Assembly (NCBI GenBank): GCA_001767195.1
Contig: MEKU01000080.1
Span: forward strand, 20,566 to 67,084
Direction of reading: 5' to 3'
From: Acidobacteria bacterium RIFCSPLOWO2_02_FULL_67_21
Lineage (GTDB): Bacteria; Acidobacteriota; Vicinamibacteria; Vicinamibacterales; UBA2999
DNA: 46,519 bases
The notes under the pieces were generated by a model. It searched no databases. It had not been told where the DNA came from and was given only the letters and a program-made list of their open reading frames with translations. Positions 1,304 to 36,256 of the stretch are shown one piece after another. Position numbers and translations under genes: made by a program. Position 1 is the stretch's first letter. Each line of letters begins with the position of its first letter.

Positions 1304-1770
1304 GCTGTCCTGTACGCGGCCTGCCGGGCGTCCTGGTCTTCGGGATCGGCCGTCGCGCCTTCGAGCCAGACCTCGCCGCCCTCGAAATGCTCCCGCTTCC
1401 AGATGGGGACGATCTGCTTCACGCGTTCGATGGCGTACCGGCACGCGGCAAACGCCGCGGCGCGGTGTGCCGAGACGGCGACAATCACCACGCTCGCGTC
1501 GCCAATCTCGAGGCGCCCGATCCGATGGTGAATGCCGAGCCGCGCATCAGGCCATGCCGCCTCCACCTCGCTGACGATCCGCTTCAACGCCTTGATCGCC
1601 AGCGGTTCGTAGGCCTCGTACTCGAGGAACCGCACCTGCCGGCCCTGATTGTGCGCGCGCACCAGCCCCGTAAACGTGGCGACCGCACCGTCGCCTGCGG
1701 ATCCGGCATTCAGCTCGCGCCCCAGCGATGCCGGATCCAGCGGCTCCGAGGTCACGGCGACCTGGACCAT
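1294..1770 (-). CDS. moaE: Molybdopterin synthase catalytic subunit (MoaE)
   Basis: GDGAVATFTGLVRAHNQGRQVRFLEYEAYEPLA...HRIGRLEIGDASVVIVAVSAHRAAAFAACRYAIERVKQIVPIWKREHFEGG. Confidence 0.95.
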   Translation of the reverse strand: MVQVAVTSEPLDPASLGRELNAGSAGDGAVATFTGLVRAHNQGRQVRFLEYEAYEPLAIKALKRIVSEVEAAWPDARLGIHHRIGRLEIGDASVVIVAVSAHRAAAFAACRYAIERVKQIVPIWKREHFEGGEVWLEGATADPEDQDARQAAYRTACA

Positions 1771-1774
1771 GGGA

Positions 1775-2566
1775 TCAGTATAACGTTCGGTTCCAGAAGT
1801 GGTTCATGGGACCGTGCCCTTTCCCGAGGGCTGGAGCGGTCCGGATGGCTCCCGCCACATAGGCCTGCGCCAGCGGAATCGCCTCGTCCAGCGAGCGACC
1901 GAGTGCAAGATGCGCGGTCACGGCGGAGGCGAACGTGCAGCCCGTGCCGTGCGTGCTCCGCCCCGGCACTCGCGCCGTGCGAAACTCGGTGAAGCGCGCG
2001 CCGTCGTACAGCAGATCGACGATGTCGGCCGAGTCGAGATGGCCCCCTGTGATGATGACGGCGGCCGGACCGAGGGACGCGATGCGCCGCGCCGCCTCGT
2101 GCCGGTCGGCCTCGGTCCGAATCGGGGTGCCCGAGAGCGCTTCCGCTTCGGGGATGTTCGGCGTCACGACGAACGCGCGCCGCAACAGCTCCGTCTTCAT
2201 CGTCGCGACCGCTTCATCATCGATGAGCGCGGCGCCGCTCTTGGCGATCATCACGGGATCCACGACGAGCCAGGGAATCTCCAGATCGGCGACGGCTGCC
2301 GCCACGGCTTCGACGATCGCGGCTGTGGCGAGCATTCCAGTCTTCGCCGCATCCACGCCGATATCGGAGACGACGGCCTCGATCTGCGCGGCGACGAGAT
2401 CGGCCGACAGCGCTTCGAAGCTCGTGACGCCGAGCGTGTTCTGCGCGGTGACGGCGGTAATTGCGCTCACGCCGTACACGCCGTGCGCCGCGAACGTCTT
2501 CAGGTCGGCCTGGATGCCCGCTCCGCCGCTGGAATCGCTGCCCGCGATGGTGAGAGCGGTGTGCAT
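1775..2566 (-). CDS. thiD: Hydroxymethylpyrimidine/phosphomethylpyrimidine kinase
   Basis: MHTALTIAGSDSSGGAGIQADLKTFAAHGVYGVSAITAVTAQNT...GTGCTFASAVTAHLALG. Confidence 0.95.
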   Translation of the reverse strand: MHTALTIAGSDSSGGAGIQADLKTFAAHGVYGVSAITAVTAQNTLGVTSFEALSADLVAAQIEAVVSDIGVDAAKTGMLATAAIVEAVAAAVADLEIPWLVVDPVMIAKSGAALIDDEAVATMKTELLRRAFVVTPNIPEAEALSGTPIRTEADRHEAARRIASLGPAAVIITGGHLDSADIVDLLYDGARFTEFRTARVPGRSTHGTGCTFASAVTAHLALGRSLDEAIPLAQAYVAGAIRTAPALGKGHGPMNHFWNRTLY

Positions 2567-7022: not shown

Positions 7023-7051
7023 TTGCTGGGGGGTCACCCGGAGCATATAAT
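7023..7051 (+). promoter_or_regulatory. Sigma70-type promoter of the erpA-like gene
   Basis: TTGCTG (7023-7028), 17-nt spacer, TATAAT (7046-7051); SD AGGAG just before ATG 7079. Confidence 0.7.
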
Positions 7052-7078: not shown

Positions 7079-7402
7079 ATGATCAACGTGTCTCAGACGG
7101 CGGCGTCCAAGATCAGCGAGCTGCTTGGCGAAGAAGGCAAGGCGGGCAGCGGCCTGCGCGTGTTCGTGCAGGGCGGCGGCTGCTCGGGTTTTCAGTACGG
7201 GCTCATGATCGAGGAAAACGGCGGTGACGCCGATCAGGTGTTCGAGTCCAACGGTGTGAAGCTGTACGTCGACCCGGTCAGCATCAGCTACCTCAAGGGC
7301 GCGGAAGTCGACTTCGTGGAGACCGTGACCGGCGGCGGTTTCACCATTCGCAACCCCAACGCCGTGTCCACGTGCGGGTGCGGCCAGTCGTTCACCGTGT
7401 GA
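7079..7402 (+). CDS. erpA: Iron-sulfur cluster insertion protein, IscA/ErpA family
   Basis: LRVFVQGGGCSGFQYGLMIEEN...FTIRNPNAVSTCGCGQSF (C...CGC A-type carrier motif). Confidence 0.9.
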   Translation: MINVSQTAASKISELLGEEGKAGSGLRVFVQGGGCSGFQYGLMIEENGGDADQVFESNGVKLYVDPVSISYLKGAEVDFVETVTGGGFTIRNPNAVSTCGCGQSFTV

Positions 7403-7403
7403 C

Positions 7404-8381
7404 GTGACGGCCCTTCCAGATCTGACCCGCCTCAAGCCCGAAGGCGGCAAGCGATCCAGCAAGCGGGAGCAGATCGTCAATGTCTTCCTCCGGCAGGAAG
7501 GGCATCTCAGCGCCGACGATCTCGTCGACCTGATCCGTCAGGAGGATCACCGGATCAGCCGCGCCACCGTTTACCGGACGCTCCAGTGGATGGTGGATGC
7601 TGGCATCGCGCGCAAGGTCGATTTTGGCGAGGGGCGGTTCCGGTTCGAGCATTCGTACCGGCAACCCCGCCACTTCCATCTTATCTGCAAGAGCTGTCAC
7701 CGATCGTTCGAGTTTCTCAGCTCGGACATCGAAGCGCTGGTCGAAGAAGTGGCGTCGGCGCGCAGCTTTGCGGCGTCGCAGAGCGTGGTCCAGATCTACG
7801 GCACGTGCGACGAGTGCCGGACGGGCCGGCAGCCGACACAGGCCGACGGCCACAAGGATCTGCTCTTCGCGCGCGACGCCCTGCGGATCGCGATTGCCAC
7901 CGAGCGCAGCGGGCTCGAGTTCTACACCCGCGCCGCCCGGCTGACCCGCGATCCCCGCGGGCGCAAGGTCTTCGACGACCTCGCGCTCGAGGAGAAGGAG
8001 CATCTCACCAAGCTGGAGGCGCGCTACAACGAGCTGCTGCAGCGCGATCCGCAGCTCGAGTCGCAGCCGACGTTCCTTTTCTTCAAAGGCGCCGCGAACG
8101 GCCTCTTCGCGGAAGGCGCCGACCGGCTGCTCAAGGGCGTCAACGATCAGCAGGCGCTGCTCATCGGCATCCGCTGCGAGCGCGGGTCGCACCAGTTCTT
8201 CAAGAAGTACGGCGAGCGTTTCGACGACTCAGAGGGAAAGCAGATCTTCCTGGAGTTCGCCGACGAGGAGCGCCAGCACCTCGAGCTCCTCATCCGGGAA
8301 TACCGTGCGCTCCTGAAGCGCCAGGGCCGCAGACGGCGGGCCGGCCGGCCGGGCTCCCCGGCGGCGCGCGCCGCCCGGTGA
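7404..8381 (+). CDS. Fur-family regulator fused to a rubrerythrin/ferritin-like diiron domain
   Basis: N-term KRSSKREQIVNVFLRQEGHLSADDLVDLIRQEDHRISRATVYRTLQWMVDAGIARKVDFGEGRFRFEH...HFHLICKSCHRSFEF...CDECR; C-term ATERSGLEFYTRAARL...EEKEHLTKLEARY and ERGSHQFFKKYGE...EERQHLELL, two E...ExxH half-sites. Confidence 0.88.
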   Translation: MTALPDLTRLKPEGGKRSSKREQIVNVFLRQEGHLSADDLVDLIRQEDHRISRATVYRTLQWMVDAGIARKVDFGEGRFRFEHSYRQPRHFHLICKSCHRSFEFLSSDIEALVEEVASARSFAASQSVVQIYGTCDECRTGRQPTQADGHKDLLFARDALRIAIATERSGLEFYTRAARLTRDPRGRKVFDDLALEEKEHLTKLEARYNELLQRDPQLESQPTFLFFKGAANGLFAEGADRLLKGVNDQQALLIGIRCERGSHQFFKKYGERFDDSEGKQIFLEFADEERQHLELLIREYRALLKRQGRRRRAGRPGSPAARAAR

Positions 8382-19717: not shown

Positions 19718-21091
19718 GTGATCAAGAAGGTCTGCGTCTTCCTGTTCGTGTGGCTTGCGATTCCGTGCACGGCCGCGCCGGCGTCGGATGCCATGCTGCT
19801 CCGACTGTACCTCACCGACGGCAGCAGCATCGTCAGCTACGGCGAGTTTGCGCGCGTCGGCGAGCAGGTGATTGTCTCGATGGTGATGAGCGGCGCCGAC
19901 GAGCCGCGGCTGCACGCGGCCACGCTGCCGGCCAGCGCCATCGATTGGATGCGCACGGACCTTCATGCCGCATCGGCGCGGTATCAGTGGTACGCGCGCA
20001 CACGCGGCGAGGACGATTTCAGGCGATTGACCGACGACGTGGCGTCCGTGCTCAATACCGTCGTGTCGAGCAAAGACCGTGCCCGGGCCCTCGAGTTTGC
20101 CGAGAAGGCGCGCGCCACGCTGGCGGAGTGGCCCCGGCAGCATTACGGATACCGGCAGCGCGACGTCCGCGAAATTCTCGCTGTCCTGGACGAGGCCATC
20201 TCGGACCTTCGAGCGGCGACCGGTGCCAGCGCCTTCAATTTGTCGCTGGTCGCCGACCCGCCGGATGTTCCGCTCGAGCCGCTGGCGGTCCTCCCGACGG
20301 CTCGCGAGCAGATTGACCAGGCCCTGCGCGTCGCCGGCCTGACGGTCCGTCCGGCCGAGCGCGTCGCGCTGCTGCAGGCCGTCTTGCAGCTGCTCGATGA
20401 AGCCGGGGCCACGATTCCGTCGGGCGACGCGGCGGTCTGGCGGCGTTCGGCTGAGGCGGTCATCGCCGAGGAGCAGACCGTCGATGCGCGCTACGCGGAG
20501 ATGACGCGTCGCCTGATGACGGATGCGACACGCGGCGCGGCGCGTGCGCAGGTCACCTCGGTCGAGCGCGTGCTCAGCCGGATTCCCCGTGAGGACGCGC
20601 GGCTCGGACGCCGGCGTCCCGAGGTCATGCAGGCACTGTCCGCATCGGTCCAGGGACAGCTGGACGCGGCCCGGCGTCTCCGCCTTCTGCGGGACCAGTG
20701 GGCGATCCGGCGTTCGCTCTACACCGAGTACCAGCGGAAAGTCGGCGCTCAGGTAATCCAGCTCGTCAAAGCCCAGCCGGCGCTCGAATCGATCAGGCGC
20801 CTCGACGGTCCGCCGCCCGAAACACTTCTGACCGTTCAAGCGGGGTTGCGCGGCGGCGCTGAACGTCTGGACCGCGTCGATCCGCCCGTCGATCTTCGAA
20901 CCGCGCACGAGCTGCTCATCGGCGCGTGGCGGTTTGCGGAAAGCGCCGTGGCCGGACGGTTTCAGGCGGCCCGCACCGCCGACGTGCCGGCAGCCTGGGA
21001 GGCCTCCTCGTCCGCCGCCGGCGCGCTGCTGCTCCTGTCGCGGTTCCAGCAGGAGCTTCGCACGCTTCTGGAGCCCCCGCAGCTGCAGTGA
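19718..21091 (+). CDS. Hypothetical exported protein, helical
   Basis: GTG start: MIKKVCVFLFVWLAIPCTAAPASDAMLLRLYLTDGSSIVSYGEFARVGEQVIVSMVMSG...; overlaps addB-like start by 4 nt. Confidence 0.7.
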   Translation: MIKKVCVFLFVWLAIPCTAAPASDAMLLRLYLTDGSSIVSYGEFARVGEQVIVSMVMSGADEPRLHAATLPASAIDWMRTDLHAASARYQWYARTRGEDDFRRLTDDVASVLNTVVSSKDRARALEFAEKARATLAEWPRQHYGYRQRDVREILAVLDEAISDLRAATGASAFNLSLVADPPDVPLEPLAVLPTAREQIDQALRVAGLTVRPAERVALLQAVLQLLDEAGATIPSGDAAVWRRSAEAVIAEEQTVDARYAEMTRRLMTDATRGAARAQVTSVERVLSRIPREDARLGRRRPEVMQALSASVQGQLDAARRLRLLRDQWAIRRSLYTEYQRKVGAQVIQLVKAQPALESIRRLDGPPPETLLTVQAGLRGGAERLDRVDPPVDLRTAHELLIGAWRFAESAVAGRFQAARTADVPAAWEASSSAAGALLLLSRFQQELRTLLEPPQLQ

Positions 21092-23988
21092 CGCAGGTCA
21101 CCGCCCGCACGACGCGGCTCGTGCGGGCGCCGGATCTCGCCGCCTTCCGGCACGAGGCGGTGGCGCTGGCCTGCGAGGGGACCGCCGCCGACGTCGGTGA
21201 CCGACTGGTGGTGGTGCCCACCCGCGCCGCGGCCGCCTACCTGACCCGTGCCATCGAGCGGCGCCTGCTCGGCGAAGACCAGGCGCTTCTCCTGCCGGCG
21301 TTCGTCACGCGTGCCGAGCTGCATCGGCGGCTGGCCGAGCGGCTTCCGGGCGAGCTGCGGCAGCTTGGCAATCCGGAAAGGGAGGTGCTGATGGCCGTCG
21401 CCTGCCGCCGTGCCATCCGCGACGGCGCGGTCCCGCCGTTTCAGCTGCGGCCAGGACTGGTCGGCGAAATCGTCGACTTCTTCGACACGCTTCATCGCAA
21501 CCTCAAACCGGTCGACGCATTCGAGCGGCTCGCGCTCGGAGCTCTGGAGCCAGGGGCCGGCGACGATCGGGGCGCCGAACGGCTGATCCACCAGACCCGC
21601 TTTCTCGCCGCCGCGTTCCGGCATTTCGAGCGGCTGTGCGAAGAGACGGGGGCGCCCGACGAACACCGGCTTCGCGCCATGCTGATCCGTGAGCCCAGCC
21701 CGCGTCCCTGGAGACATGTGGTCCTTGCCGTGGGTGACCGAGCGGGCGACGAGTACGGCCTCTTTGCGGCGGACTGGGACCTGCTGGCGCGGCTTCCGGG
21801 CCTCGAACGAATCGACGTGCTGGCGACCGACGCCACGATAGCGGGCGCGTTCCATGAACGCATCCATCACGTGCTTCCAGGCATCGAAGAGACCCGCGCG
21901 GACTCGGCCGCCCCATCACCGTCGCCGCGGCTGCTCGTGCCTCCCGGCGGTGCCAGCGTGCACCCGGCGCGGGATCGCGAGGACGAGGTGGCAGGCTTTG
22001 CGCGATGGGTGCGGCACGAGCGGTTGCCCTTGGAGGACACCGCGCTGGTCGTCCGGCGCCCGCTCCCCTACGCGTACATCACACGCGAGGTACTCCGTTC
22101 CGCCGGGGTGCCGCTGCAGATGTGGGATACGCTTCCGCTGGCCGCCGAGCCCTTTGCGGCGGCAATCGACCTGGTGTTTGCGTGTGTGGTCCGCAATTGT
22201 GCGCGTGGACCGGCCGTCGAGCTGCTTCGCTCGCCGCATTTCAACTCTGGGCTGCCGCCGCGCTCGATTGCCCGCCTCGAACGTGCGCTCAGCGAAGCGG
22301 GCTATGCCGGAGGGCTGGATGCCCTGGAGGTCCTGCTCCGGACATGGGAACAGGTTGCGCCCGAACGCTCGGACGTCCTGCTCGAGGGCGCGCGAGTGCT
22401 GCGTACGGTGGCGGCGGAGCTGGCGCCGCTCCGGGAGCCGGCCCCTTGCCACCTTCATCTCGATCGCGTCCTCGCGTTCATTCAGGCGCGCGAGTGTCTG
22501 CCGGCTGCCGGAGACCCGCTGCGGCCACGCCTGCTGCGCGGCCGTGCGGCGATCCTCTCGGTGCTCACGGGCCTTCGGGATGCGCATGCGAGATTCGACG
22601 AGGAGGCCGTCGACTTCGAGACGGTAGCCGCCCTGGTCAAACGTTCGATTGAGGCTCGCACGTTTGCACCGCGGACTGGGGAAGGCGGCGTCCATCTCAT
22701 CGACGCCGGCAGCGCGCGCTTCGGCGACTTCGCGCACGTGCAGCTTGCCGGCCTGGTGGACGGCGAATGGCCGGAGAATCCCAGGCGCAACATCTTCTAC
22801 CCGCCGTTTCTGCTCCGCGATCTGGGCTGGCCCCCGGAGTCCGAACGGCTCGATGCCGCGCGGGCTGCGTTCACCGATCTGCTGCGCCTGCCGTCCGAGC
22901 AGCTCGTGATGTCCACGTTTTCGCTCGAGGGCGACGCGCCGGTCTCGGTCTCGACGCTGGTCGATCTGGCCGCTGCTTCCGGGCTCGATAGCCGCGAATG
23001 CACGATCCCGCAGGACCGCATCTTCGAGCAGGAAGCGGTCGCGCTCGATCCGGTCGACATGCGGCCCCTTGGTGCCGCGGCGCGGGCGGCCGTGTGCCGT
23101 CGGATCGAGGCGGCCGCCCGTCCGGGTCGCCGCGCAGGCGCCACCAGCGGCCACCGCGCGTCGGCGTACTCGGTCAGCTCTCTCGAACGGTACCAGGATT
23201 GCCCCTTCAAGTTTTTCGCAGCCAACGTGCTGCGGATACCCGAGCCCTCCGACGATCGGGCGCGGGCGCCGCGGCTGCGGGGACAGTTCCTGCACCAGCT
23301 CTTCCAGCGCTTCTTCGAGGTCTGGGAGGCTCGCGGCGGGGGCACCGTCACCGTGGGCCGGATCGACGAGGCGCGAGCCCTGTTCGAGGAAGTGGCGGCA
23401 CCGGTGCTGGCGGAGCTGCCCGAAGCGGAAACGGCGCTCGAGCGCGCCGCGCTGTTCGGGTCGGCCGTCTCGCCAGGGACCGTCGACCTGGTCCTCGGGT
23501 TGGAGGCATCAGGACCGGAGGCGGTACTCGAGCGGCGGCTCGAATACCCCCTGAAGGGCGAGTTCTCGCTGGGCTCCGACGACGGCCGGCGGGTGGCGCT
23601 CAGGGGAGTCGCCGATCGGATCGACCTTCTCGCCGGCCGGCGTCTTCGCGTCATCGATTACAAGTCCGGCGTGGCGCCGAATCCCAAACGGGCGCTGCAG
23701 GTGCCGATCTACGCGCTGTGCGCCCTGGAAGATCTCGGCGAGGGCGACGGCAACTGGACCGTGCACGAGGCCATGTATGTCGCGTTCTCGGGCCGGCGCT
23801 CGCTCGTGCCCGTCGTGGATGCCGGCGCGGATCCGGATCCGCCGCTTGCGGCCGCACGCGACAGACTGCATGCGGTGCTCGACGGCGTGGAGCGGGGCGA
23901 ATTTCCGCCGCGCCCCCACGACATCCGCATCTGCAGCTACTGTGCCTATCCATCGGTGTGCCGGAAGGATTACGTCGGCGATGAGTAG
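21088..23988 (+). CDS. AddB-like PD-(D/E)XK nuclease / inactive-helicase subunit with C-terminal Fe-S cysteines
   Basis: SSLERYQDCPFKFFAANVLRI...RLRVIDYKSGVAPNP...ICSYCAYPSVCRKDY; N-term DRLVVVPTRAAAAYLTRAI lacks Walker A. Confidence 0.85.
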   Translation: MTQVTARTTRLVRAPDLAAFRHEAVALACEGTAADVGDRLVVVPTRAAAAYLTRAIERRLLGEDQALLLPAFVTRAELHRRLAERLPGELRQLGNPEREVLMAVACRRAIRDGAVPPFQLRPGLVGEIVDFFDTLHRNLKPVDAFERLALGALEPGAGDDRGAERLIHQTRFLAAAFRHFERLCEETGAPDEHRLRAMLIREPSPRPWRHVVLAVGDRAGDEYGLFAADWDLLARLPGLERIDVLATDATIAGAFHERIHHVLPGIEETRADSAAPSPSPRLLVPPGGASVHPARDREDEVAGFARWVRHERLPLEDTALVVRRPLPYAYITREVLRSAGVPLQMWDTLPLAAEPFAAAIDLVFACVVRNCARGPAVELLRSPHFNSGLPPRSIARLERALSEAGYAGGLDALEVLLRTWEQVAPERSDVLLEGARVLRTVAAELAPLREPAPCHLHLDRVLAFIQARECLPAAGDPLRPRLLRGRAAILSVLTGLRDAHARFDEEAVDFETVAALVKRSIEARTFAPRTGEGGVHLIDAGSARFGDFAHVQLAGLVDGEWPENPRRNIFYPPFLLRDLGWPPESERLDAARAAFTDLLRLPSEQLVMSTFSLEGDAPVSVSTLVDLAAASGLDSRECTIPQDRIFEQEAVALDPVDMRPLGAAARAAVCRRIEAAARPGRRAGATSGHRASAYSVSSLERYQDCPFKFFAANVLRIPEPSDDRARAPRLRGQFLHQLFQRFFEVWEARGGGTVTVGRIDEARALFEEVAAPVLAELPEAETALERAALFGSAVSPGTVDLVLGLEASGPEAVLERRLEYPLKGEFSLGSDDGRRVALRGVADRIDLLAGRRLRVIDYKSGVAPNPKRALQVPIYALCALEDLGEGDGNWTVHEAMYVAFSGRRSLVPVVDAGADPDPPLAAARDRLHAVLDGVERGEFPPRPHDIRICSYCAYPSVCRKDYVGDE

Positions 23989-26900
23989 CGTGAGTCTGCC
24001 CTTTGACGCCGACCCGCGCGACGCCCGCATCGCGGCTCGTGATCAGGAGGCGCGGGCGCGGGCCGTTGACCCGCGCTTCAACGTGGCCCTCGAGGCCTCG
24101 GCCGGCACGGGCAAGACGCGAATCCTCGTCGACCGGTATATCAACCTGCTGCGGGCCGGCGTGGCCCCCGCAAACATTCTGGCCATCACCTTCACCCGCA
24201 AGGCGGCGGCAGAGATGCGTGACCGCATCATGGCGACGCTCCGCGCCGCGGCGGCGCGTGGAGAGATCGCGCCGGCGCGGTGGCGCGATCTGCGGGATCG
24301 CACGGCCGACATCGCCATCTCCACGATCGACGCGTTCTGTCTGTCGCTGCTGCGCGAGTTTCCGCTCGAGGCCGACCTGGAGCCGGGCTTCTCGCTCGCC
24401 GACGAATCCGAGCTGCCGAGGCTGCGCGACGAGGCGCTCGATGCCGCGGTGCACATCTGCCGCGCCGCGGCCCGCGCCGATGAGGACCTGACGCTCGTGT
24501 TCGCGCAGCTCGGGGAGCGCCGCGTACGGGCGGCGCTGGCGGCGCTGCTCGAACGCCGGCTTGTCGCTCCCCGTGTGCTGTCCGCGTTTCTGGCGCAGGG
24601 GCCGCCGCCCGCAGACGGCGCCGCCGCCAGCCTCAACGCGGCAGTGCGGCTCGGCGATGTCTTCGACGCCATGCGCGGCGGACTCGATCGGTTCGTCGAC
24701 ACAGGGCCGCTCCACGCGCGCTTCGACCTGCTCGTCCATGATCTTCGGGGCCTGCGGGGGGGGCGTCCGGGCCGGCCCGGGCTCGTGCAGGCGGTGTTCA
24801 CCCGGGTTCGCGCGCACTTCCTCACGCACGAGGGCCGTCCGCGCCGCCGGCAGCCGTTTCGCCGCGACCTTTTTGCCAGCGCCGCCGACTGGAACGCGCA
24901 CACCGCGCTCGTGGTGGAGCATGCGCCGGCCATCGCAGCCATCGACGCGGCCTATCGCCGCGACGTCAACGCGCTGCTCTCGCGGGGGATCCGGCGTATG
25001 TTCGCGATCGCGGCCGCGGAGTACCGGCGGACCCTGGATGCGCACGCCGCGCTGGACTTTCCGGATCTGCTGCTCCGTGCGCTCGAGCTCCTGCGCCGGA
25101 TGGACGAGTTCTCGCGAAGCCGCTACCGTCTCGAGTCGAGGTATCACCACGTGCTCGTCGACGAGTTTCAGGACACGAGCCGCGCACAGTGGGAACTGGT
25201 GTCGCTGCTCGTGCAGTCATGGGGTGAAGGCGCCGGGCTTGCCGCCACCGGGCCGCTGCAGCCGTCCATCTTCATCGTCGGCGACCGCAAGCAGTCGATC
25301 TACGGCTTCCGCGACGCCGACGTCTCCGTGCTGCGTGAGGCCGCGCGCCACATAGGGACCCTTCGTGGAGACCCGGACGTTCGCCGCGCCATCTCGCGCA
25401 GCTTCCGTGCGGCGCCGGCGCTGCTCGCGTTCGTGAATGATGTCTGCGAGGACATGCCGAAAGGCAGCGGCGACGAGGCGTTCCAGTATGAAGAGACGGA
25501 CCGCTTTCCACTGGAGCCACCGGCGCCGGATCCGGGGACGGCTCGGGCAGATCCCCCGATCGGTCTCGTGGCAGCCCCTGCGGTCGAAGAGTGCGCAGAA
25601 ATCACCGCCGCGGAAATTGCCCGTCTACTGACCGCGGCGGTCGAGATTCGCGACCGCGACACCGGGCTGCCGCGCCCGATATCGCCCGGCGACATCGCCA
25701 TCCTGTTTCGCTCGCGGGAGAGCCACCGCGAGTTCGAGGCGGCGCTCGCGCGCCGCCGGATCCGCGCGTCCGTCTACAACGGCCTGGGCTTCTTCGACGC
25801 CGACGAAGTCAAGGACGTCCTGGCGCTCATCGGGTATCTGGCGGATTCGGCATCGGATCTGCGCGCCGCGGCGCTGATGCGCTCGCGAGTCGTCGGGCTC
25901 TCGGACGAGGCGCTGCGCCTGCTGGCGCCCGCGCTTGCCGGGACGCTGGCGTGCGAGAACCCTCCGGACACCGCGCCGCTCCTCGCGCCGGCGGATCGCG
26001 CGGCCCTCACCGAGGCACAGACCGCGACGGCCCGCTGGCGCGCGCTTGCCGATCGGATGCCGCCGGCCGAGCTGGTCGATCTCGTGCTCAGCGAGTCGGC
26101 GTATGCATTCGAGTTGCGAGGGCCGCGGGTCGCACAGGCACGCGAGAATCTGAAGAAGCTTCGCGACTGGCTCCGGCGGCTCCAGAATCGCGGCTATGTG
26201 ACGTGCGCCCGGCTGGCGGCGCAGCTCGGCCGGCTCGCCGTGGGCGGCGAGGCCAATGCAGTCATGGATGCCGGTGACGCCGTCAGTCTGATGACCATTC
26301 ACGCGGCCAAGGGGCTCGAGTTCCCGGTCGTATTTGTGGTGAACCTGGGCCGCGGAACAGGCGGCCCGCGCGATTCCGTCCGGCTGTGGGGCGACGAGGC
26401 GGCGGCGGTCGCCGTGGGCGACTTTCAATCGGACGCCGACGCAGAACAGCCTGCGCGGGAGCGTGAGGAGACGAAGCGGCTTCTCTACGTCGCGTTGACA
26501 CGTGCGCGAGACCGGCTGTACCTCGGCGCAACGCTGAGAGAAGGTCGGGTTCCCGCATCCCGAGGCAGTCTCGCCGAGGTCCTGCCCTCCGCCCTCGTCG
26601 AGCGGCTTGGGGCGGCCGGACAGGACCTGGCGGTGTGGCGTGCCTCATCCGGCGTCGAACACGCGTTCCGTGTGTGTGATGCACGCGAACCGGGCGGCGC
26701 GCTGCCGCAGGGCGAGCTTCCCGAGCGTGAAGCTCCGGCGTGCGATTTCGCGGCGCTCCAAGCACCTTCGCCGGCACGCACCGTGGCGGCACTGGCAGAA
26801 GAGGGGTCGGAGCCCTTCGACGAGACGTCCCCGACCGATGATTCGGGCCGGCTTCTGGGTCTCATCGTTCATCGCCTCCTGCAGCGATATGGCTTCGATG

Positions 26901-27322
26901 CGGGCCCGGAGGTCGACGCGGATACGGCACTCAGCATGCTTCGGCCTGACGAAGTGACGAGCGCCGTGTCGCGTTCTCCTCTCGAGCTGGCGGCCGCAGC
27001 CGGCAAGGCCTATCGCGCCATCACCGGGCAAGACGACATCCGCGCGCTGTACACCTCGGGCGAGCGGCTGGACGAGGTTCCGTTCACGATGCGCGTCGCC
27101 GGCGTCGCCGTGCGCGGCACGATTGATTGTCTGGTGCGCGCGGGATCCGATCGGCTGCTCGTGCTGGAGTTCAAGACGGGGAGTCCGCGCCCGGCGCATC
27201 GCGTGCAGCTCGATCTCTATCGCCGTGCCGCCGAACGGCTGTTCCCTGGTATGGCGGTCGACGCGCGCCTGGTGTACGCGCACACCTTCCGGGGCTCGGC
27301 GGGCGGCGGTCATGTGCGCTGA
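23981..27322 (+). CDS. AddA-like UvrD/RecB helicase-nuclease
   Basis: FNVALEASAGTGKTRILVDRYINLL...ILAITFTRKAAAEMRDRI...HVLVDEFQDTSRAQWEL...VGDRKQSIYGFRDADV...LMTIHAAKGLEFPVVFVVNL...RLLYVALTRARDRLYLG...LLVLEFKTG; 8-nt overlap with addB. Confidence 0.92.
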   Translation: MSSVSLPFDADPRDARIAARDQEARARAVDPRFNVALEASAGTGKTRILVDRYINLLRAGVAPANILAITFTRKAAAEMRDRIMATLRAAAARGEIAPARWRDLRDRTADIAISTIDAFCLSLLREFPLEADLEPGFSLADESELPRLRDEALDAAVHICRAAARADEDLTLVFAQLGERRVRAALAALLERRLVAPRVLSAFLAQGPPPADGAAASLNAAVRLGDVFDAMRGGLDRFVDTGPLHARFDLLVHDLRGLRGGRPGRPGLVQAVFTRVRAHFLTHEGRPRRRQPFRRDLFASAADWNAHTALVVEHAPAIAAIDAAYRRDVNALLSRGIRRMFAIAAAEYRRTLDAHAALDFPDLLLRALELLRRMDEFSRSRYRLESRYHHVLVDEFQDTSRAQWELVSLLVQSWGEGAGLAATGPLQPSIFIVGDRKQSIYGFRDADVSVLREAARHIGTLRGDPDVRRAISRSFRAAPALLAFVNDVCEDMPKGSGDEAFQYEETDRFPLEPPAPDPGTARADPPIGLVAAPAVEECAEITAAEIARLLTAAVEIRDRDTGLPRPISPGDIAILFRSRESHREFEAALARRRIRASVYNGLGFFDADEVKDVLALIGYLADSASDLRAAALMRSRVVGLSDEALRLLAPALAGTLACENPPDTAPLLAPADRAALTEAQTATARWRALADRMPPAELVDLVLSESAYAFELRGPRVAQARENLKKLRDWLRRLQNRGYVTCARLAAQLGRLAVGGEANAVMDAGDAVSLMTIHAAKGLEFPVVFVVNLGRGTGGPRDSVRLWGDEAAAVAVGDFQSDADAEQPAREREETKRLLYVALTRARDRLYLGATLREGRVPASRGSLAEVLPSALVERLGAAGQDLAVWRASSGVEHAFRVCDAREPGGALPQGELPEREAPACDFAALQAPSPARTVAALAEEGSEPFDETSPTDDSGRLLGLIVHRLLQRYGFDAGPEVDADTALSMLRPDEVTSAVSRSPLELAAAAGKAYRAITGQDDIRALYTSGERLDEVPFTMRVAGVAVRGTIDCLVRAGSDRLLVLEFKTGSPRPAHRVQLDLYRRAAERLFPGMAVDARLVYAHTFRGSAGGGHVR

Positions 27323-28713: not shown

Positions 28714-29817
28714 ATGTCCTCGCTCGATCGCGACGCGGTATTGAACGCCCTCAAGACGGTTGTCGATCCGGATCTTCGCCGCGACATCGTGTCGCTCGGC
28801 TTTGTGAAGAGCCTGGCGATTGACGGCGGCGGCCGCGTCTCATTCACGATCGAGCTCACCACTCCCGCGTGTCCGGTGAAGGATCAGCTGCGCGACCAGG
28901 CGGTCGCGGCCGTCCGGGCCCTGCCAGGGGTCAGCGATGTCGAGGTGCAGATGACGGCCAGCGTACGCTCCGTCTCGGCGCCCGAGACGGGACGGACGCC
29001 ACTGCCGGGCGTCAAGAACGTCATCGCCGTCGGCGCGGGAAAAGGCGGCGTCGGGAAGACCACGGTCGCGGTCAATCTCGCACTGGCGCTCGCGAAATGC
29101 GGCAGCCGCGTCGGGATTCTGGACGGCGACATGTACGGACCGAATGTGCCGCTCATGATGGGGCTGGAGACGCAGCAGCTCACGACCGATGGACAGCGGA
29201 TCGTGCCTGCCGAGAAGTACGGCGTGCAGGTGGTGTCCATCGGGTTCATGACCGGCGATGATGCCGCGGTGATCTGGCGCGGTCCAATGCTGCACCAGGC
29301 CATCCAGCAGTTCTTCCGGGAGGTGGCGTGGCACGACCTCGACTATCTGATTGTCGACATGCCGCCCGGAACCGGGGACGTCGCCCTGAGTCTGAGCCAG
29401 ACCGTGCCCGTGGCGGGGGCCGTCCTCGTGACCACGCCGCAGCAGGTCTCGCTGGCGGACACGAGGCGGGCCATCCGCATGTATCAGAAGCTCAACATCA
29501 AGCCGATCGGCGTCGTCGAGAACATGAGCTACTACGCCTGTCCGAACTGCCATCACGAATCCGACATCTTCGGATACGGCGGCGGCGAGTCCCTTGCGCA
29601 ATCGATGGAGGTCCCGTTTCTGGGCCGGCTGCCCGTGTACCAGCCGATCCGGGAGGGGAGCGACACCGGTGTGCCCCTGATTGTGAGCGAGCCAGGGTCA
29701 CCGGCCGGCCGGGCCTTTATGACTGTGGCGGAGCGGACGGCCGCGCAGCTCTCGATTGAGGCGCTCAAAGTGGCGGAAGCCAACAAGGGGAAAATCCCGC
29801 TCATTCCGGTTCGATAG
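28714..29817 (+). CDS. mrp: Mrp/NBP35-family ATPase (Fe-S carrier ApbC-like)
   Basis: NVIAVGAGKGGVGKTTVAVNLALALAKCGSRVGILDGDMYGPNVPLMMG...VDMPPGTGDVALSLSQTVP...NMSYYACPNCHHESDIFG. Confidence 0.93.
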   Translation: MSSLDRDAVLNALKTVVDPDLRRDIVSLGFVKSLAIDGGGRVSFTIELTTPACPVKDQLRDQAVAAVRALPGVSDVEVQMTASVRSVSAPETGRTPLPGVKNVIAVGAGKGGVGKTTVAVNLALALAKCGSRVGILDGDMYGPNVPLMMGLETQQLTTDGQRIVPAEKYGVQVVSIGFMTGDDAAVIWRGPMLHQAIQQFFREVAWHDLDYLIVDMPPGTGDVALSLSQTVPVAGAVLVTTPQQVSLADTRRAIRMYQKLNIKPIGVVENMSYYACPNCHHESDIFGYGGGESLAQSMEVPFLGRLPVYQPIREGSDTGVPLIVSEPGSPAGRAFMTVAERTAAQLSIEALKVAEANKGKIPLIPVR

Positions 29818-29912: not shown

Positions 29913-29929
29913 TTAAGACTCAGTCTCAA
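29913..29929. promoter_or_regulatory. Candidate Fur box
   Basis: TTAAGACT-C-AGTCTCAA, 17-nt near-perfect palindrome just downstream of the -10. Confidence 0.55.
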
Positions 29930-29954
29930 AGTTATGGTTCGGAGGGTTCAGGTC

Positions 29955-32393
29955 ATGGCGAAAACGCTTGTGGTGCTGCTGGTGGTGCTCGGGGCGGCAT
30001 GGCCCGCTGCCGCGCAGGGTGAGCCGACGATTCTGGGGCGGGTCGTATCGCCGGGGGGCGCTGCGGTCGCCGGCGCCGAGATCGTCCTGCGCTCCGCTCT
30101 GGGGGAAGAGACCGTCACAACGGCCGGCCCGGAAGGGCAGTTCGAGTTTCAGCGCGTCCCGGCCGGTGTGTACCGGCTGCTTGCCTCAGCGATCGGCATG
30201 TCCCCGATCGCGCAGCCGCTGACGGTCGCGGCGGGTCAGCCGCTGTTCGTCACGATCGAGCTGCCCGAGGTGGTGCGGGAGCGCGTCAACGTGGTGGGCC
30301 ACTCGTCGGCGGCCGGCCGTATTCCGGGTGCCGCGCGGATCATCGAGCCTGACGAGATGCAGAAGCTCCAGATCGCCACCGACGACGTCCATCAGATGCT
30401 GCGCCAGATCCCGGGGTTGAATATTCAGGAGGAGGAGGGCTACGGCCTGCGGCCCAACATCGGGATGCGCGGAACCGGCACCGACCGCAGCAGCAAGATC
30501 ACCCTGATGGAGGACGGCGTGCTCGTCGCGCCCGCGCCCTATTCGGCGCCCGCGGCGTACTACGCACCGGTGCCCGGCCGAATGGAATCCCTCGAGGTGC
30601 GCAAGGGATCGAGCCAGGTGAAGTACGGCCCGATTACCACCGGCGGCGTGCTGAATTACGTGTCGACGTCGATACCGTCCGCCTTCCGGGTCCGCGGCAA
30701 CGTGGCCACGGGCGCGGATCGCACCGGCAAGATTTCGGTCAACGTGGGCGACGAGTACCGGAACTTCGGCTGGCTCGTCGAAACCTTCCAGCTTCGCAAC
30801 GACGGGTTCAAGACGCTCGACGGCGGCGGCGACACCGGCACCGACCTGCAGGACTACATGGGGAAGCTGCGCTTCAATACGACGCCCTCATCCACGTTGT
30901 ATCAGGAAGTTGAGTTCAAGATCGGCCGCACCGAGCAGGTCGGCAACGAGACGTATCTCGGGCTGACCGACGAGGACTTTGGCCGCACGCCGCTGCGGCG
31001 CTATGCCGCTTCGCAGCACGACGTCATCAACTCGACTCACGAGCAATACCACGTGCGCCATCTGCTCGCGCGCCGCAACTGGGACGTGACGACGGTCGGC
31101 TACCGGAATGACTTCCAGCGTGCCTGGTACAAGTTGGAAAGCGTGCTCGGGTCTGGGCTGGGGGGTGTGCTGGCCGCGCCCGATCGCTTCCCGCAGCACC
31201 TGGCCGTCCTGAAAGGCGGAGACAGCGCGCCAAACGCGCTCGTCATCCGGAACAACAACCGCGCGTACTTCGGCGCCGGCGTGCAGTCAGTGCTCGGCGT
31301 CTCACTCTCCGGTCCGCGGGTGGACCACAAGGTGGAGGCTGGTCTCCGCTACCACCGCGACGAGGAAGACCGGTTCCAGCAGGATGACGCGTATCAGATG
31401 ACAGCGGGGCGCATGACCCGGACCCGTGCCGGCGCGCCGGGGAGCCAGACGAATCAGGTGGTGGGCGCCTCGGCGGTTGCCGTGTTCCTGTCCGACACGA
31501 TCACCTGGGGCAGCTGGTCGTTCGCGCCCGGTGTCCGCTACGAGACGATCGATTTCGAGCGGATCGACTACTCGCGCTCGGATCCCACCCGCACCGCCGG
31601 GTCTGCCGCCTTGGACACGTCGGTTGACGTCGTCGTCCCTGGCGTCGGCGTCACGTACGAGGTTCGTCCCGGGATGGTGGCGTTCGGTGGAGTGCACAGA
31701 GGCTTTGCTCCCCCGGGACCGGGGTTGGCGCCAGAGACGAACTCTGAAGAGAGCGTGAACTACGAGCTCGGCTCGCGGGTCGAGCGGGGCGCGCTCCGTG
31801 GAGAGCTGATCGGCTTTTTCAACGACTATTCGAACCTGTTGGGGCGGGACACGCTGTCGACGGGCGGCACGGGCGACGGAGACCTGTTCAACGGCGGCGA
31901 AGCGCTGACTGCCGGTCTCGAGGCGGCAGTCGATTGGAATCCGCTGGCCGGACGGCTCGGGGCCTTTGCACTGCCGGTGCGCCTCGCCTACACCTTTACC
32001 CGCGCCGAGTTCCGCAACGATTTCCAGAGCGCCTATGGACCATGGGGAACCGTGCGCGTGGGCGACGGTCTTCCGTATGTGCCGCAACACCAGCTGCACG
32101 CGAGCGTCGATCTCGATCGAGGCCGCTGGCGGGCCCGCCTGGACTCGACGTACCTGGGCCGGATGCGCACGCGCGCAGGCCAGGGCGCGCACGTCGCCAC
32201 GGAATCGACCGAGGCGTATCTGGTCGTCGGCCTGTCCGGCGAGTATGCGCTCGGCGGCGGCGCGGGCCTCTTTGCGAGCGTCCAGAACGTCACCGACAAC
32301 AGCTACATCGTGTCCCGGCATCCCGCGGGGGTTCGTCCCGGCCTGCCGCGGCTGTTTCTCGCCGGCCTGAAGTTCGATGTCGGACGGCGGTAA
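29955..32393 (+). CDS. TonB-dependent receptor (FecA-like) with N-terminal carboxypeptidase-regulatory-like domain
   Basis: MAKTLVVLLVVLGAAWPAAAQGEPTILGRVVSPGGAAVAGAEIVL...MLRQIPGLNIQEEEGYGLRPNIGMRGTGTDRSSKITLMEDGVLVAPAPYSAPAAYYAPVPGRMESLEVRKG...; SD ggagg before ATG 29955. Confidence 0.88.
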   Translation: MAKTLVVLLVVLGAAWPAAAQGEPTILGRVVSPGGAAVAGAEIVLRSALGEETVTTAGPEGQFEFQRVPAGVYRLLASAIGMSPIAQPLTVAAGQPLFVTIELPEVVRERVNVVGHSSAAGRIPGAARIIEPDEMQKLQIATDDVHQMLRQIPGLNIQEEEGYGLRPNIGMRGTGTDRSSKITLMEDGVLVAPAPYSAPAAYYAPVPGRMESLEVRKGSSQVKYGPITTGGVLNYVSTSIPSAFRVRGNVATGADRTGKISVNVGDEYRNFGWLVETFQLRNDGFKTLDGGGDTGTDLQDYMGKLRFNTTPSSTLYQEVEFKIGRTEQVGNETYLGLTDEDFGRTPLRRYAASQHDVINSTHEQYHVRHLLARRNWDVTTVGYRNDFQRAWYKLESVLGSGLGGVLAAPDRFPQHLAVLKGGDSAPNALVIRNNNRAYFGAGVQSVLGVSLSGPRVDHKVEAGLRYHRDEEDRFQQDDAYQMTAGRMTRTRAGAPGSQTNQVVGASAVAVFLSDTITWGSWSFAPGVRYETIDFERIDYSRSDPTRTAGSAALDTSVDVVVPGVGVTYEVRPGMVAFGGVHRGFAPPGPGLAPETNSEESVNYELGSRVERGALRGELIGFFNDYSNLLGRDTLSTGGTGDGDLFNGGEALTAGLEAAVDWNPLAGRLGAFALPVRLAYTFTRAEFRNDFQSAYGPWGTVRVGDGLPYVPQHQLHASVDLDRGRWRARLDSTYLGRMRTRAGQGAHVATESTEAYLVVGLSGEYALGGGAGLFASVQNVTDNSYIVSRHPAGVRPGLPRLFLAGLKFDVGRR

Positions 32394-32421: not shown

Positions 32422-33534
32422 GTGATGACGTCGCTCGTATCGGTCGTGGATGCTCCGCGTGGAATGCCGGTGAGCCCGGTGGCCATGCCGATGGTGGCGG
32501 TCGACCGGGTGACGGTGGCGTTCGGCGACCTGCTGGCGCTCGACGGCGTGTCGCTCGAGGTGGAAACCGGCGAGATCGTGTCGCTCGTGGGGCCTTCGGG
32601 ATCGGGAAAGTCGACGCTGCTGCGGGTGATTGCCGGAATCACGCGCCCGACCCGGGGGCGCGTGCGCCTCGCGGGGAGCGAAGTCGCGGGTCCGGCCACG
32701 TTTGTCGAGCCAGAACACCGCCGGGTCGGCCTGGTCTTTCAGGATTACGCGCTCTTCCCGCATCTCACGATCGCCGCCAACGTGGCGTTCGGTCTCAAGG
32801 GGCTGGACCGGCGCGTCGTGCGGCGCACCGTAGGCGAACTGCTCGAGCGGTTCGGCCTCGCGCGCTATGCGGAGAGCTACCCGCACATGCTGTCGGGCGG
32901 CGAGCGGCAGCGAGTGGCGCTCGCACGAGCGTTGGCGCCGCAGCCGCGCGTGATCCTCATGGACGAACCGTTTTCCGGCCTCGACAGCCGGCTTCGCGAT
33001 CGCGTCCGCCAGGAGACGTTGGACGTCCTGCGCGAGACGCACACGACGACCCTCGTCGTGACACACGATCCAAGCGAGGCGATGCGTGCCGCGGATCGTG
33101 TGGCCCTGCTCCACGACGGACGGCTGATCCAGTACGGTCCGGTCGAAGAGGTCTACGCGCATCCGGCGACGGCGTTTGCGGCGCGGTTCCTGAGCGAGGT
33201 CAACGAGCTTTCAGGTACCTGCTGCTGCGGCCGTGTGGACACTGCGCTTGGATCGTTTGCGGCCCCCCACCTTCCCGAGGCGTCGCCAGTACGGGTGTGC
33301 ATCAGACCCCATCACGTGCGGGTGACCGATCGGCCGACCGGTATCCCGGCGATGGTGGTCTCCTCGGAGTTTCTTGGGGAGAGCGATCGGATGATGCTCG
33401 AGGTGCCGGGCCTGGATCGGCCTCTGTGCCTCAGGACCTTCGGTCGCGCGCACATGGCGCCCGGGCACCGTGTGTTTCTGGATGTCGATCCCGCCGGCGT
33501 TGTCGTCGTACCCGACGATGACCGGCCGGCATAG
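32422..33534 (+). CDS. fbpC: Iron(III) ABC transporter ATP-binding protein, FbpC-like
   Basis: VGPSGSGKSTLLRVIAGITRP...VFQDYALFPHLTIAANVAFGL...MLSGGERQRVALARALAPQPRVILMDEPFSGLD...VTHDPSEAM. Confidence 0.85.
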   Translation: MMTSLVSVVDAPRGMPVSPVAMPMVAVDRVTVAFGDLLALDGVSLEVETGEIVSLVGPSGSGKSTLLRVIAGITRPTRGRVRLAGSEVAGPATFVEPEHRRVGLVFQDYALFPHLTIAANVAFGLKGLDRRVVRRTVGELLERFGLARYAESYPHMLSGGERQRVALARALAPQPRVILMDEPFSGLDSRLRDRVRQETLDVLRETHTTTLVVTHDPSEAMRAADRVALLHDGRLIQYGPVEEVYAHPATAFAARFLSEVNELSGTCCCGRVDTALGSFAAPHLPEASPVRVCIRPHHVRVTDRPTGIPAMVVSSEFLGESDRMMLEVPGLDRPLCLRTFGRAHMAPGHRVFLDVDPAGVVVVPDDDRPA

Positions 33535-33558
33535 ACGGTTTTCTACCGAGGCCTCGTT

Positions 33559-34587
33559 ATGACACTTTCACTTGTGCGGTTCTTGAAGGCGGCCCTGCCG
33601 GGCGCCGCCGTGCTTCTGTGTGCCGCGACGGCGTCGGCACAGGAGGTCAATCTCTACACCACCCGTGAGCCCGGCCTCATCCAGCCGCTGATGGACGCCT
33701 TTACGAAGGCGACGGGCATCAAGGTGAACAGCATCTTCGTGCGCGACGGACTCGCCGAGCGCGTCGCGGCGGAAGGGACGCGGTCCCCGGCCGACGTCCT
33801 GATGGACGTCGACATCGGCGCGCTGATCACGCTGGTGGATCGCGGGCGGACGCAGCCGGTCCGGTCGAGCGTGCTCGAGGCGGCGGTGCCGGCGAACCTT
33901 CGCGGGAGCGACGGGTCGTGGTTCGCGCTGTCGCTGCGCGCCCGCGTGCTGTACGTGCAGAAAGACCTGAGCCTGAAGTCGTTCACCTACGAGCAGCTCG
34001 CCGATCCGCAGTGGAAGGGCAAGATTTGCACACGCGCTGGCCAGCATGCCTACACCACCGCGCTGATTGCCGCGTACATCGCCCATTACGGCGAAGCGCG
34101 CGCGGAGGCATGGCTGAGAGGGCTCAAGAGCGGCCTGGCGCGGGCCGCGGCGGGGGGCGATCGTGACGGCGCCCGCGACATCATGGGCGGCATCTGCGAT
34201 CTGGCCCTCGGCAATTCCTACTATGTCGGCCTGATGCGGAGCGGCGCCGGCGGCCCGGATCAAGAGAAGTGGGGGTCGGCGATCCGCATCATTCTGCCCA
34301 CGTTTGAGAACGGCGGGACGCACGTGAACGTGTCGGGCGCCGCAATCGCGAAGAACTCGCCGAACAGGGCGAACGCTCTCCGGTTCCTCGAGTTCCTGGT
34401 GTCCGACCAGGCGCAGAAGATGTATGCCGAGGCGAACTTCGAGTACCCGGTGAAGGCCGGCGTTGCCGCGCATCCGATTATTGCCGCCCTTGGACCGCTG
34501 AAGGTTGATGGGCTCCCGCTGGTCGAGATTGCGAAACACCGCGCGACCGCCAGCAAGCTCGTGGACAAGGTCGGATACGACCGCTGA
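33559..34587 (+). CDS. fbpA: Iron(III) ABC transporter substrate-binding protein, FbpA/FutA-like
   Basis: Signal peptide; QEVNLYTTREPGLIQPLMDAFTKATGIKVNSIFVRDGLAERVAAEGTRSPADVLMDVDIGAL...WFALSLRARVLYV...AGQHAYTTALIAAYIAHYGE. Confidence 0.88.
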   Translation: MTLSLVRFLKAALPGAAVLLCAATASAQEVNLYTTREPGLIQPLMDAFTKATGIKVNSIFVRDGLAERVAAEGTRSPADVLMDVDIGALITLVDRGRTQPVRSSVLEAAVPANLRGSDGSWFALSLRARVLYVQKDLSLKSFTYEQLADPQWKGKICTRAGQHAYTTALIAAYIAHYGEARAEAWLRGLKSGLARAAAGGDRDGARDIMGGICDLALGNSYYVGLMRSGAGGPDQEKWGSAIRIILPTFENGGTHVNVSGAAIAKNSPNRANALRFLEFLVSDQAQKMYAEANFEYPVKAGVAAHPIIAALGPLKVDGLPLVEIAKHRATASKLVDKVGYDR

Positions 34588-34597
34588 TCCCCGTGTG

Positions 34598-36256
34598 ATG
34601 CTCCGGAGGCCGGGCCGTGGAAGCCCGTGGCTCGCCGCCTCCGGCATCGTCGCTCTCCTCGTTATCGCCCCCATCGCGGCTCTCGCGCTCACGGCATCGC
34701 GGGGGTCGGCCGATCTCTGGCAGCACCTGATCGCCTATGTCCTGCCGGTGGCCGTGCGCGACACCTTCGTCCTGCTCCTCGGCGTCGGGCTGCTGACGGC
34801 GGCTGTCGGCACGACGATGGCCTGGCTGGTCACCGCGTACGATTTTCCCGGGCGCCGCGTCATCGACTGGGCGCTGTTGCTGCCGCTGGCGGTGCCGACC
34901 TACGTGGTCGCGTACGCCTATCTCGATATCCTGCATCCCGTCGGCCCGGTGCAGACCGCGTTGCGCGCGCTGCTCGGCATCGACGACCCGCGCGATTTCC
35001 GGCTGCCGGATATCCGATCCATGGCCGGCTGCGTCGTGCTGCTCGGGTTCGTGCTGTATCCGTATGTCTATCTGACGACCCGAGCCATGTTTCTGATGCA
35101 GACGGCGAATCTGGTTGAGGTGGCGCGCACGCTGGGCATCAGCCGGCGCGGGGTGTTTCTGCGTGTCGCGTTCCCGCTGGCGAGACCCGCGGTGGCCGTG
35201 GGCCTCAGTCTTGTCCTGCTCGAGACGGTCAACGACATCGGCGCGTCGGAATTCCTCGGCATCCGCACGTTGACCGTGTCCATCTATGCGACCTGGATCA
35301 CGCGGTCGGATCTGGCGGGCGCCGCGCAGATGGCGCTGGCCATGCTCGCTGTGGCGCTTGGAGTCGTGCTTCTGGAGCGGTGGGCCCGGCGGCAGCGCCA
35401 GTATGCCAACGATGCGCAGCATGCCCGCCCGCTCGAACCACAGCGGCTTGCGGGCTGGCGCGCGGGCGCGGCGCTGGTCGCCGCCATCACCCCGGTCGCG
35501 ATCGGATTTGCGATTCCTGCGGCGTATCTGGTCGACGAGGCGCTCGCCCGCGTGCGTTTCGCAGGGGTGTCTCGAGTCATCCTGTCGGAGACAAGCGCGA
35601 CCATTGGGCTTTCACTCGTGGCGACGGCGCTGACCGTGCTGGCGGGCCTCGGCGTCGCGTACGCCGTACGGGCGACGGGCCGCGCGGCCGCAGGCGTGCT
35701 CGCGCGCATCGCATCGCTCGGCTATGCCATCCCGGGCACGGTGCTGGCGATCGGGCTGCTTCCGGTCGTCACCGGCATCGAGGCCTTCGTCGATAGCGGT
35801 GCTCGCGCGGTACTTGGGGTGTCCACCGGCCTGCTGCTGCTCGGCAGCGGCGCCGCACTCATCTATGCGTACGTCGTCAGATTCCTGGCGCTCGCCGTTG
35901 GCGGCGTCGAGGCCGGCCTCAGCCGCGTCCCGGCATCCCTGGACGAGGCGGCTCGCACGTTGGGGGAGTCGGCAGGCGGCCGCCTGCGGCGTATCCACCT
36001 GCCGCTCGTGCGCCCGGCTCTCGCGACGGCAGCGCTGCTGGTGTTTGTCGACTGCATGAAGGAGCTGCCGGCGACGCTGCTCCTCCGGCCGCTCGGCCTC
36101 GAGACGCTGGCGACACACTTGTACGGGGAAGCGGTGCGCGGCACGTACGAGGACGCTGCGATTGCCGCACTGTTGATTGTGGCGGCTGGGCTCGTTCCAG
36201 TGGTCATCCTCGCGCGTGTCAGTCGCGCGCGCATCCACGCAGGTCCCCTCTTGTAG
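34598..36256 (+). CDS. fbpB: Iron(III) ABC transporter permease, FbpB-like (duplicated permease domain)
   Basis: PLAVPTYVVAYAYLDILHPVGPVQ...MLRRPG start; EVARTLGISRRGVFLRVAFPLARPAVAVGLSLVLLETVNDIGASEFLGI...EAARTLGESAGGRLRRIHLPLVRPA. Confidence 0.88.
   Translation: MLRRPGRGSPWLAASGIVALLVIAPIAALALTASRGSADLWQHLIAYVLPVAVRDTFVLLLGVGLLTAAVGTTMAWLVTAYDFPGRRVIDWALLLPLAVPTYVVAYAYLDILHPVGPVQTALRALLGIDDPRDFRLPDIRSMAGCVVLLGFVLYPYVYLTTRAMFLMQTANLVEVARTLGISRRGVFLRVAFPLARPAVAVGLSLVLLETVNDIGASEFLGIRTLTVSIYATWITRSDLAGAAQMALAMLAVALGVVLLERWARRQRQYANDAQHARPLEPQRLAGWRAGAALVAAITPVAIGFAIPAAYLVDEALARVRFAGVSRVILSETSATIGLSLVATALTVLAGLGVAYAVRATGRAAAGVLARIASLGYAIPGTVLAIGLLPVVTGIEAFVDSGARAVLGVSTGLLLLGSGAALIYAYVVRFLALAVGGVEAGLSRVPASLDEAARTLGESAGGRLRRIHLPLVRPALATAALLVFVDCMKELPATLLLRPLGLETLATHLYGEAVRGTYEDAAIAALLIVAAGLVPVVILARVSRARIHAGPLL

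Follow-up and report, generated by a model that had tools for sequence, protein, structure and literature searches.

One open reading frame in the window, by which we mean the whole 46,519-nucleotide stretch of DNA analysed here, encodes a Fur regulator and a ferritin-like domain in a single polypeptide, and this fusion is confirmed to be real and not an assembly artefact. Judged from sequence, it probably serves these bacteria as their main iron Fur. The fuller reading, that a diiron module gives this main iron Fur a second redox or iron-load input in cis, with the functional coupling that the earlier note proposed, has in our estimate about an even chance (roughly 0.5).

Architecture and conservation of the fusion

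The reading frame lies at 7404..8381 on the + strand, starts with GTG and runs through 325 codons with no internal stop. Its parts, all on the + strand, are a Fur domain with winged helix and dimerisation/metal domain (residues 14-141, 7443..7826), a linker (residues 142-153, 7827..7862), a ferritin-like four-helix domain (residues 154-304, 7863..8315) and a basic C-terminal tail (residues 305-325, 8316..8378). The Pfam profile PF01475 (FUR) matches residues 14-132 with 90.4 bits against a cut-off of 23.1 (E = 1e-25), and PF02915 (Rubrerythrin) matches the second half, split in two stretches, with 44 bits against 22.8 (E = 3e-11); the latter profile is matched in 68/69 fusion members. With both domains above cut-off in one reading frame, the single-polypeptide architecture claimed in the earlier note stands. 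In a PDB sequence search the first half matches 20 Fur-family sequences (best 2o03, 4e-17), and the modelled Fur domain matches Campylobacter jejuni Fur in Foldseek (E 4.5e-9). The full-length AlphaFold model (pTM 0.52) folds the first half like Fur and the second as a four-helix bundle, with an uncertain orientation of the domains.

The fusion recurs widely among relatives. The source genome of the window (4.19 Mb, 99.5% complete) was sampled together with relatives from the same family and order, the Vicinamibacterales, and the single-ORF fusion is present in 55/59 of these genomes, most full-length copies being 69-91% identical. A scan of GTDB-species genomes, which covers close relatives, returned 52 loci, nearly all labelled Acidobacteria or Vicinamibacteria and two labelled Acidimicrobiia. 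Among 396 Acidobacteriota genomes sampled across the phylum, divergent full-length fusions occur in ~10 other families (~31-44% identity, E 1e-52 to 1e-93); two sampled families of the same class (f16 and f17) have a stand-alone Fur of ~160-174 aa. The Fur-domain tree is compatible with one or several origins of the fusion. One Vicinamibacterales genome that is 100% complete (G058) lacks both the fusion and the operator described below and carries a PerR-like protein only; another genome of its family (G394) has the fusion. A plasmid search found no place spanning both domains.

Because the single reading frame recurs in 55/59 relatives and in the public loci, an origin by assembly artefact or frameshift is ruled out. 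A stop or frameshift between the domains was looked for and is absent, and homologues encoded as two separate genes were likewise looked for and none was found split. The sole apparent C-terminal-only copy (G203) has a run of N inside its Fur part (L134) and is therefore no evidence of split genes. On codon-position mismatch rates, which in both domains are ~0.06-0.15 at position 1, 0.06-0.11 at position 2 and 0.43-0.44 at position 3, both domains are under strong protein-level constraint. The ferritin-like domain shows 0 gaps in 9060 compared cells. Within the Vicinamibacterales alignment the linker is variable in sequence (identity 0.29) and near-constant in length (2 gaps/720 cells), and the tail is basic in 61/61 fusions (net charge +2 to +15, median +8). 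A variant copy (L075 5001-5843, and G027:C16) has lost residues 82-129 in frame, and with them most Fur metal ligands, while retaining the DNA-binding and ferritin parts; this copy may be genuine or may stem from an assembly error.

The gene directly upstream (7079..7402, +) encodes an erpA-type A-type Fe-S carrier, which scores 131.7 bits against the ErpA equivalog NF010147 (cut-off 117). Its stop (7402) and the GTG of the fusion (7404) are indeed separated by 1 nt, as the earlier note had it. The same arrangement, with erpA directly upstream on the same strand, is found in 50/50 loci that extend far enough. A class I fumarase gene lies upstream in 29 fusion loci and a PHP-type phosphatase gene downstream in 36. 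A TATAAT at 7046..7051 (+), a -10-like element of the erpA-fusion unit, recurs upstream of the relatives' erpA.

Metal sites of the two halves

Alignment to Bacillus subtilis PerR (sequence verified against 2fe3) and Escherichia coli Fur places the Fur regulatory site, site 2 of E. coli, at H34, E82, H90 and H92, with E103 at the PerR D104 position (7503..7712, +). By conservation, four cysteines, C95, C98, C135 and C138 (7686..7817, +), form a predicted structural zinc site or, possibly, an Fe-S site. Site 2 ligands and cysteines are kept in all 61-62 Vicinamibacterales fusions except the copy without residues 82-129. In PerR, positions 85 and 104 are Asp, and a Glu at the D104 position marks Fur, while the Zur criterion is a Cys ligand replacing the Asp85-type ligand (PMC4866751). 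Both PerR Asp positions are Glu in the fusion (E82, E103). The Zur-type Cys is absent too: E82 occupies its position, and the only cysteines of the fusion are 95, 98, 135, 138 and 258. PerR or Zur identity is ruled out by these ligand residues, and on the same residues the metal site of the fusion is Fur-type rather than PerR-type. The earlier note had left peroxide and iron open as the signal; since Glu occupies the two PerR Asp positions, the Fur half is unlikely to sense peroxide through histidine oxidation as PerR does.

Site 1 of Fur is an accessory site whose functional need is disputed. In E. coli Fur it consists of H87, D89, E108 and H125 (PMC12538065), and its equivalents in the fusion are R89, F91, E110 and S127, so that the site is largely lost and the Fur half has one regulatory site only. 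In the distant fusions the site 1 residues are mostly kept in the alignment.

A second FUR-family protein of the window's genome (L002, G000:C11:18280-21657, 1423-1911, minus strand) groups with PerR in the tree (96/92 support), and its gene lies directly upstream of katG (1-1407, minus) on the same strand in a dedicated perR-katG unit. It is the one other FUR protein of this genome.

The second half carries the complete set of ferritin-type ligands. The half-sites EEKEH and EERQH claimed in the earlier note were located at residues 196-200 and 288-292, and the glutamates E167 of helix A and E259 of helix C complete them. The six predicted diiron ligands, E167, E197, H200, E259, E289 and H292 (E + ExxH twice; 7902..8279, +), do not vary among the 61-62 Vicinamibacterales homologues. 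AlphaFold predicts the isolated domain as a four-helix bundle (pLDDT 90.6, pTM 0.86). Its best Foldseek neighbours, with a probability of 1.00 and weak E-values (best 5e-3), are 2fzf, 3fse, Dps and 2oh3, and the domain falls among ferritin-like structures of the COG1633, Dps and Mn-catalase types. Sequence matches of the second half in the PDB are the ferritin-like diiron proteins 1vjx, 2oh3 and 5n5e, and the profile of the domain matches designed diiron four-helix bundles and TM1526. With these ligands and this predicted fold, the ferritin-like half very probably binds a diiron centre.

The description of this half as ferritin/rubrerythrin-like holds for its ferritin-like fold (COG1633 / PF02915). 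It does not extend to a full rubrerythrin: the fusion has no cysteine beyond residue 258 and therefore no C-terminal rubredoxin FeCys4 domain. Rubrerythrin also has an additional glutamate in helix C (ExxE), which is absent here; S262, three residues past E259, is invariant instead. Beside the ligand E259 lies C258 (8175-8177), invariant in Vicinamibacterales and absent from the distant fusions; this cysteine may be redox-active. Two distant fusions (L129, L131) have lost diiron ligands, and the diiron site is therefore not required everywhere. The fusions in the genomes of family f42 (L127-L129, L131) are divergent, and the degenerate diiron ligands of some of them suggest that the iron chemistry was lost in one lineage.

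Operator and predicted iron regulon

The box noted earlier at 29913-29929 proves to be a plausible iron box. It contains a 15-bp palindrome, TAAGACTCAGTCTCA, at 29914..29928 (no strand assigned), a candidate Fur operator that departs from the order-wide consensus TGAGACTnAGTCTCA at 1 position. In the 59 genomes of the Vicinamibacterales sample, TGAGACTnAGTCTCA sites number 65, against 3 for the reversed control. The window's genome has two sites at no more than 1 mismatch, one before a TonB-dependent receptor gene (29934-32393) and the other upstream of a bacterioferritin gene, and allowing up to 2 mismatches raises the count to 6, the reversed pattern giving 0. The receptor (29934..32393, +; PF00593 / PF07715, FecA and siderophore-type models) has a likely start at 29955, after GGAGG. 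The bacterioferritin gene is on the minus strand, with the operator (1 mismatch) at L140 1501-1515, and its product scores 177.9 bits against 125.6 for TIGR00754.

The genes adjoining 31 box loci include those for TonB plug (14), PepSY_TM (8), LamB/YcsF (3), M16 peptidase (3) and FeoB (2) proteins, with single occurrences of FTR1, Peripla_BP_2, ferritin and AhpC. By these annotations the set looks like an iron regulon. In many Vicinamibacterales genomes the fusion is, by sequence search, the sole FUR-family protein; this holds for 20 genomes, each at least 95% complete, and boxes are present in 14 of the 20. A box at 1 mismatch or fewer is absent from many of the genomes that carry the fusion, and two incomplete genomes in which the fusion was not detected (G014, G016) have one box each. 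A DtxR-family protein is present in most genomes sampled and could be a rival reader of the box.

Over the whole sampled genome set, the box is not enriched in the distant fusion-bearing families (7 sites against 18 control sites). A box common to those families was rejected on this count, and the operator is therefore an order-level feature. Autoregulation through the same box was also rejected: no TGAGACTnAGTCTCA lies upstream of erpA in the window, nor, by eye, in the relatives' erpA promoters, where the TATAAT is the only recurrent element.

Several further observations concern the surroundings of the boxes. Downstream of the TonB-dependent receptor, an ABC importer of the ferric, phosphonate or thiamine type (ATPase, solute-binding protein and double permease) is encoded at 32422..36256 (+). 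A gene for a NUBPL/Mrp-type Fe-S carrier of the ApbC family (28714-29817) lies immediately upstream of this operator-TonB-ABC cluster. Elsewhere in the window, at 20926-27322, lie AddB/AddA-like genes that overlap, one for a PD-(D/E)XK nuclease protein and the other for a UvrD-type helicase-nuclease. At four loci from several genera (L149, L163, L164, L173) the operator stands beside a porin-like gene, with a divergent M16 peptidase gene in 3/4. At three others (L154, L156, L171) it precedes LamB/YcsF genes (5-oxoprolinase-type), which are unexpected in an iron regulon.

Possible roles of the diiron domain and relation to known systems

In the mechanism that we propose, Fe2+ in site 2 (H34, E82, H90, H92, E103) would allow the dimer to bind TGAGACTnAGTCTCA operators. 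The Fe2+-loaded fusion would repress iron uptake through TonB receptors, PepSY-TM proteins, FeoB and FTR1, and bacterioferritin may also come under its control. The ferritin-like domain would take Fe2+ into a diiron site oxidisable by O2 or H2O2, and the iron load or redox state of that site would act on the attached Fur dimer, altering either its conformation or how much iron reaches it. The regulator would in this way receive a second input within the same polypeptide. Being transcribed together with erpA would tie its dose to the Fe-S assembly machinery. The cysteines of E. coli Fur carry a [2Fe-2S] cluster (PMC12538065), which gives the erpA linkage a possible meaning. A bolder reading, to which we give less than an even chance, is that an oxidisable diiron domain gates the DNA binding of the main Fur in cis, so that one polypeptide integrates the Fe2+ level and O2/H2O2.

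The ferritin-like domain might instead be a metal buffer or chaperone, taking Fe2+ from site 2 of Fur or giving it to that site and so setting the iron threshold, a cis counterpart of Fpa/YlaN. In Staphylococcus aureus, Fpa (YlaN) is an Fe(II)-binding partner that directly modulates Fur and lowers its DNA binding (PMC11559061). The fully conserved diiron ligands and the single regulatory site of the Fur half, in which H87, D89 and H125 of site 1 (PMC12538065) are replaced by R89, F91 and S127, are both consistent with such a role. However, a full conserved diiron site with two ExxH motifs exceeds the needs of a simple Fe(II) buffer, and no transfer mechanism is visible, which makes this role rather doubtful. 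Fpa resembles the ferritin-like domain in this reading as an Fe(II)-binding partner of Fur, but it is a separate protein of Gram-positive bacteria and acts in trans.

Rubrerythrin-type diiron sites react with H2O2, and this counts towards a peroxide-responsive regulator, whose diiron domain would reduce or sense H2O2 and relieve Fur repression, or would shield bound DNA in the manner of Dps. The basic C-terminal tail fits this role, as do the perR-rbr operons of Geobacter and Desulfovibrio, which also pair a FUR-family regulator with a rubrerythrin (PMC545781). Those operons, however, consist of separate genes, are of the PerR type and are not described as erpA-linked (PMC545781). The fusion shares with PerR its membership of the FUR family, and its partner domain suggests a peroxide link, but it has no Asp at position 85 or 104, and a separate PerR-like protein is encoded next to katG in the window's genome. 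The domain also resembles the rubrerythrin/COG1633 proteins (PF02915; PDB 2fzf, 1vjx, 2oh3) in its four-helix bundle, its E + ExxH half-sites and a significant profile match, whereas it has no rubredoxin and no second helix C Glu (S262), and is joined to a DNA-binding domain. Since the box targets are in addition iron transport genes and not peroxidases, we regard a peroxide-responsive regulator as unlikely. Degenerate diiron ligands in L129 and L131 would suit a purely structural or oligomerisation module whose iron chemistry is irrelevant to regulation, but the six ligands are identical in every sampled Vicinamibacterales fusion while other positions vary, and such a module is improbable.

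The reading of the fusion as the main iron Fur with a second diiron input in cis can be set against Fur itself. The fusion shares with Fur (PF01475) the winged helix, the dimerisation domain, the site 2 ligands, the CxxC...CxxC zinc site, the Glu at the position that discriminates Fur from PerR and a 7-1-7 palindromic operator. TGAGACTnAGTCTCA shares 10/14 fixed letters with TGATAATnATTATCA, which we take to be the Fur operator consensus. Unlike Fur, the fusion has ~185 extra C-terminal residues forming the ferritin-like diiron domain, has lost the site 1 ligands of E. coli and uses the operator variant TGAGACTnAGTCTCA. We found no description of a Fur-rubrerythrin fusion in the open-access papers searched, and the architecture may already be catalogued in InterPro-type tables without having been studied.

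The physiological signal of Fur is debated, the candidates being Fe2+ at site 2, [2Fe-2S] at site 3 or partners such as Fpa. A main Fur welded to an oxidisable iron-binding diiron module, beside an Fe-S carrier gene, would make this question testable in one protein. For the Vicinamibacterales, a little-studied order of soil and groundwater, the analysis yields a candidate operator motif for Fur, together with the first prediction of an iron regulon. The diiron four-helix domains of the plant protein BRUTUS are iron sensors, sensitive to iron, O2 and H2O2 (PMC12022348). Like the fusion, BRUTUS / BTSL place a diiron four-helix domain, there with iron and redox sensing, in a regulator of iron homeostasis (PMC12022348), although they have a hemerythrin fold and are plant E3 ligases, and we claim no homology. 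If the bolder reading is true, a cis-gated diiron Fur would be the functional counterpart, in a bacterial order, of diiron sensors of the BRUTUS type.
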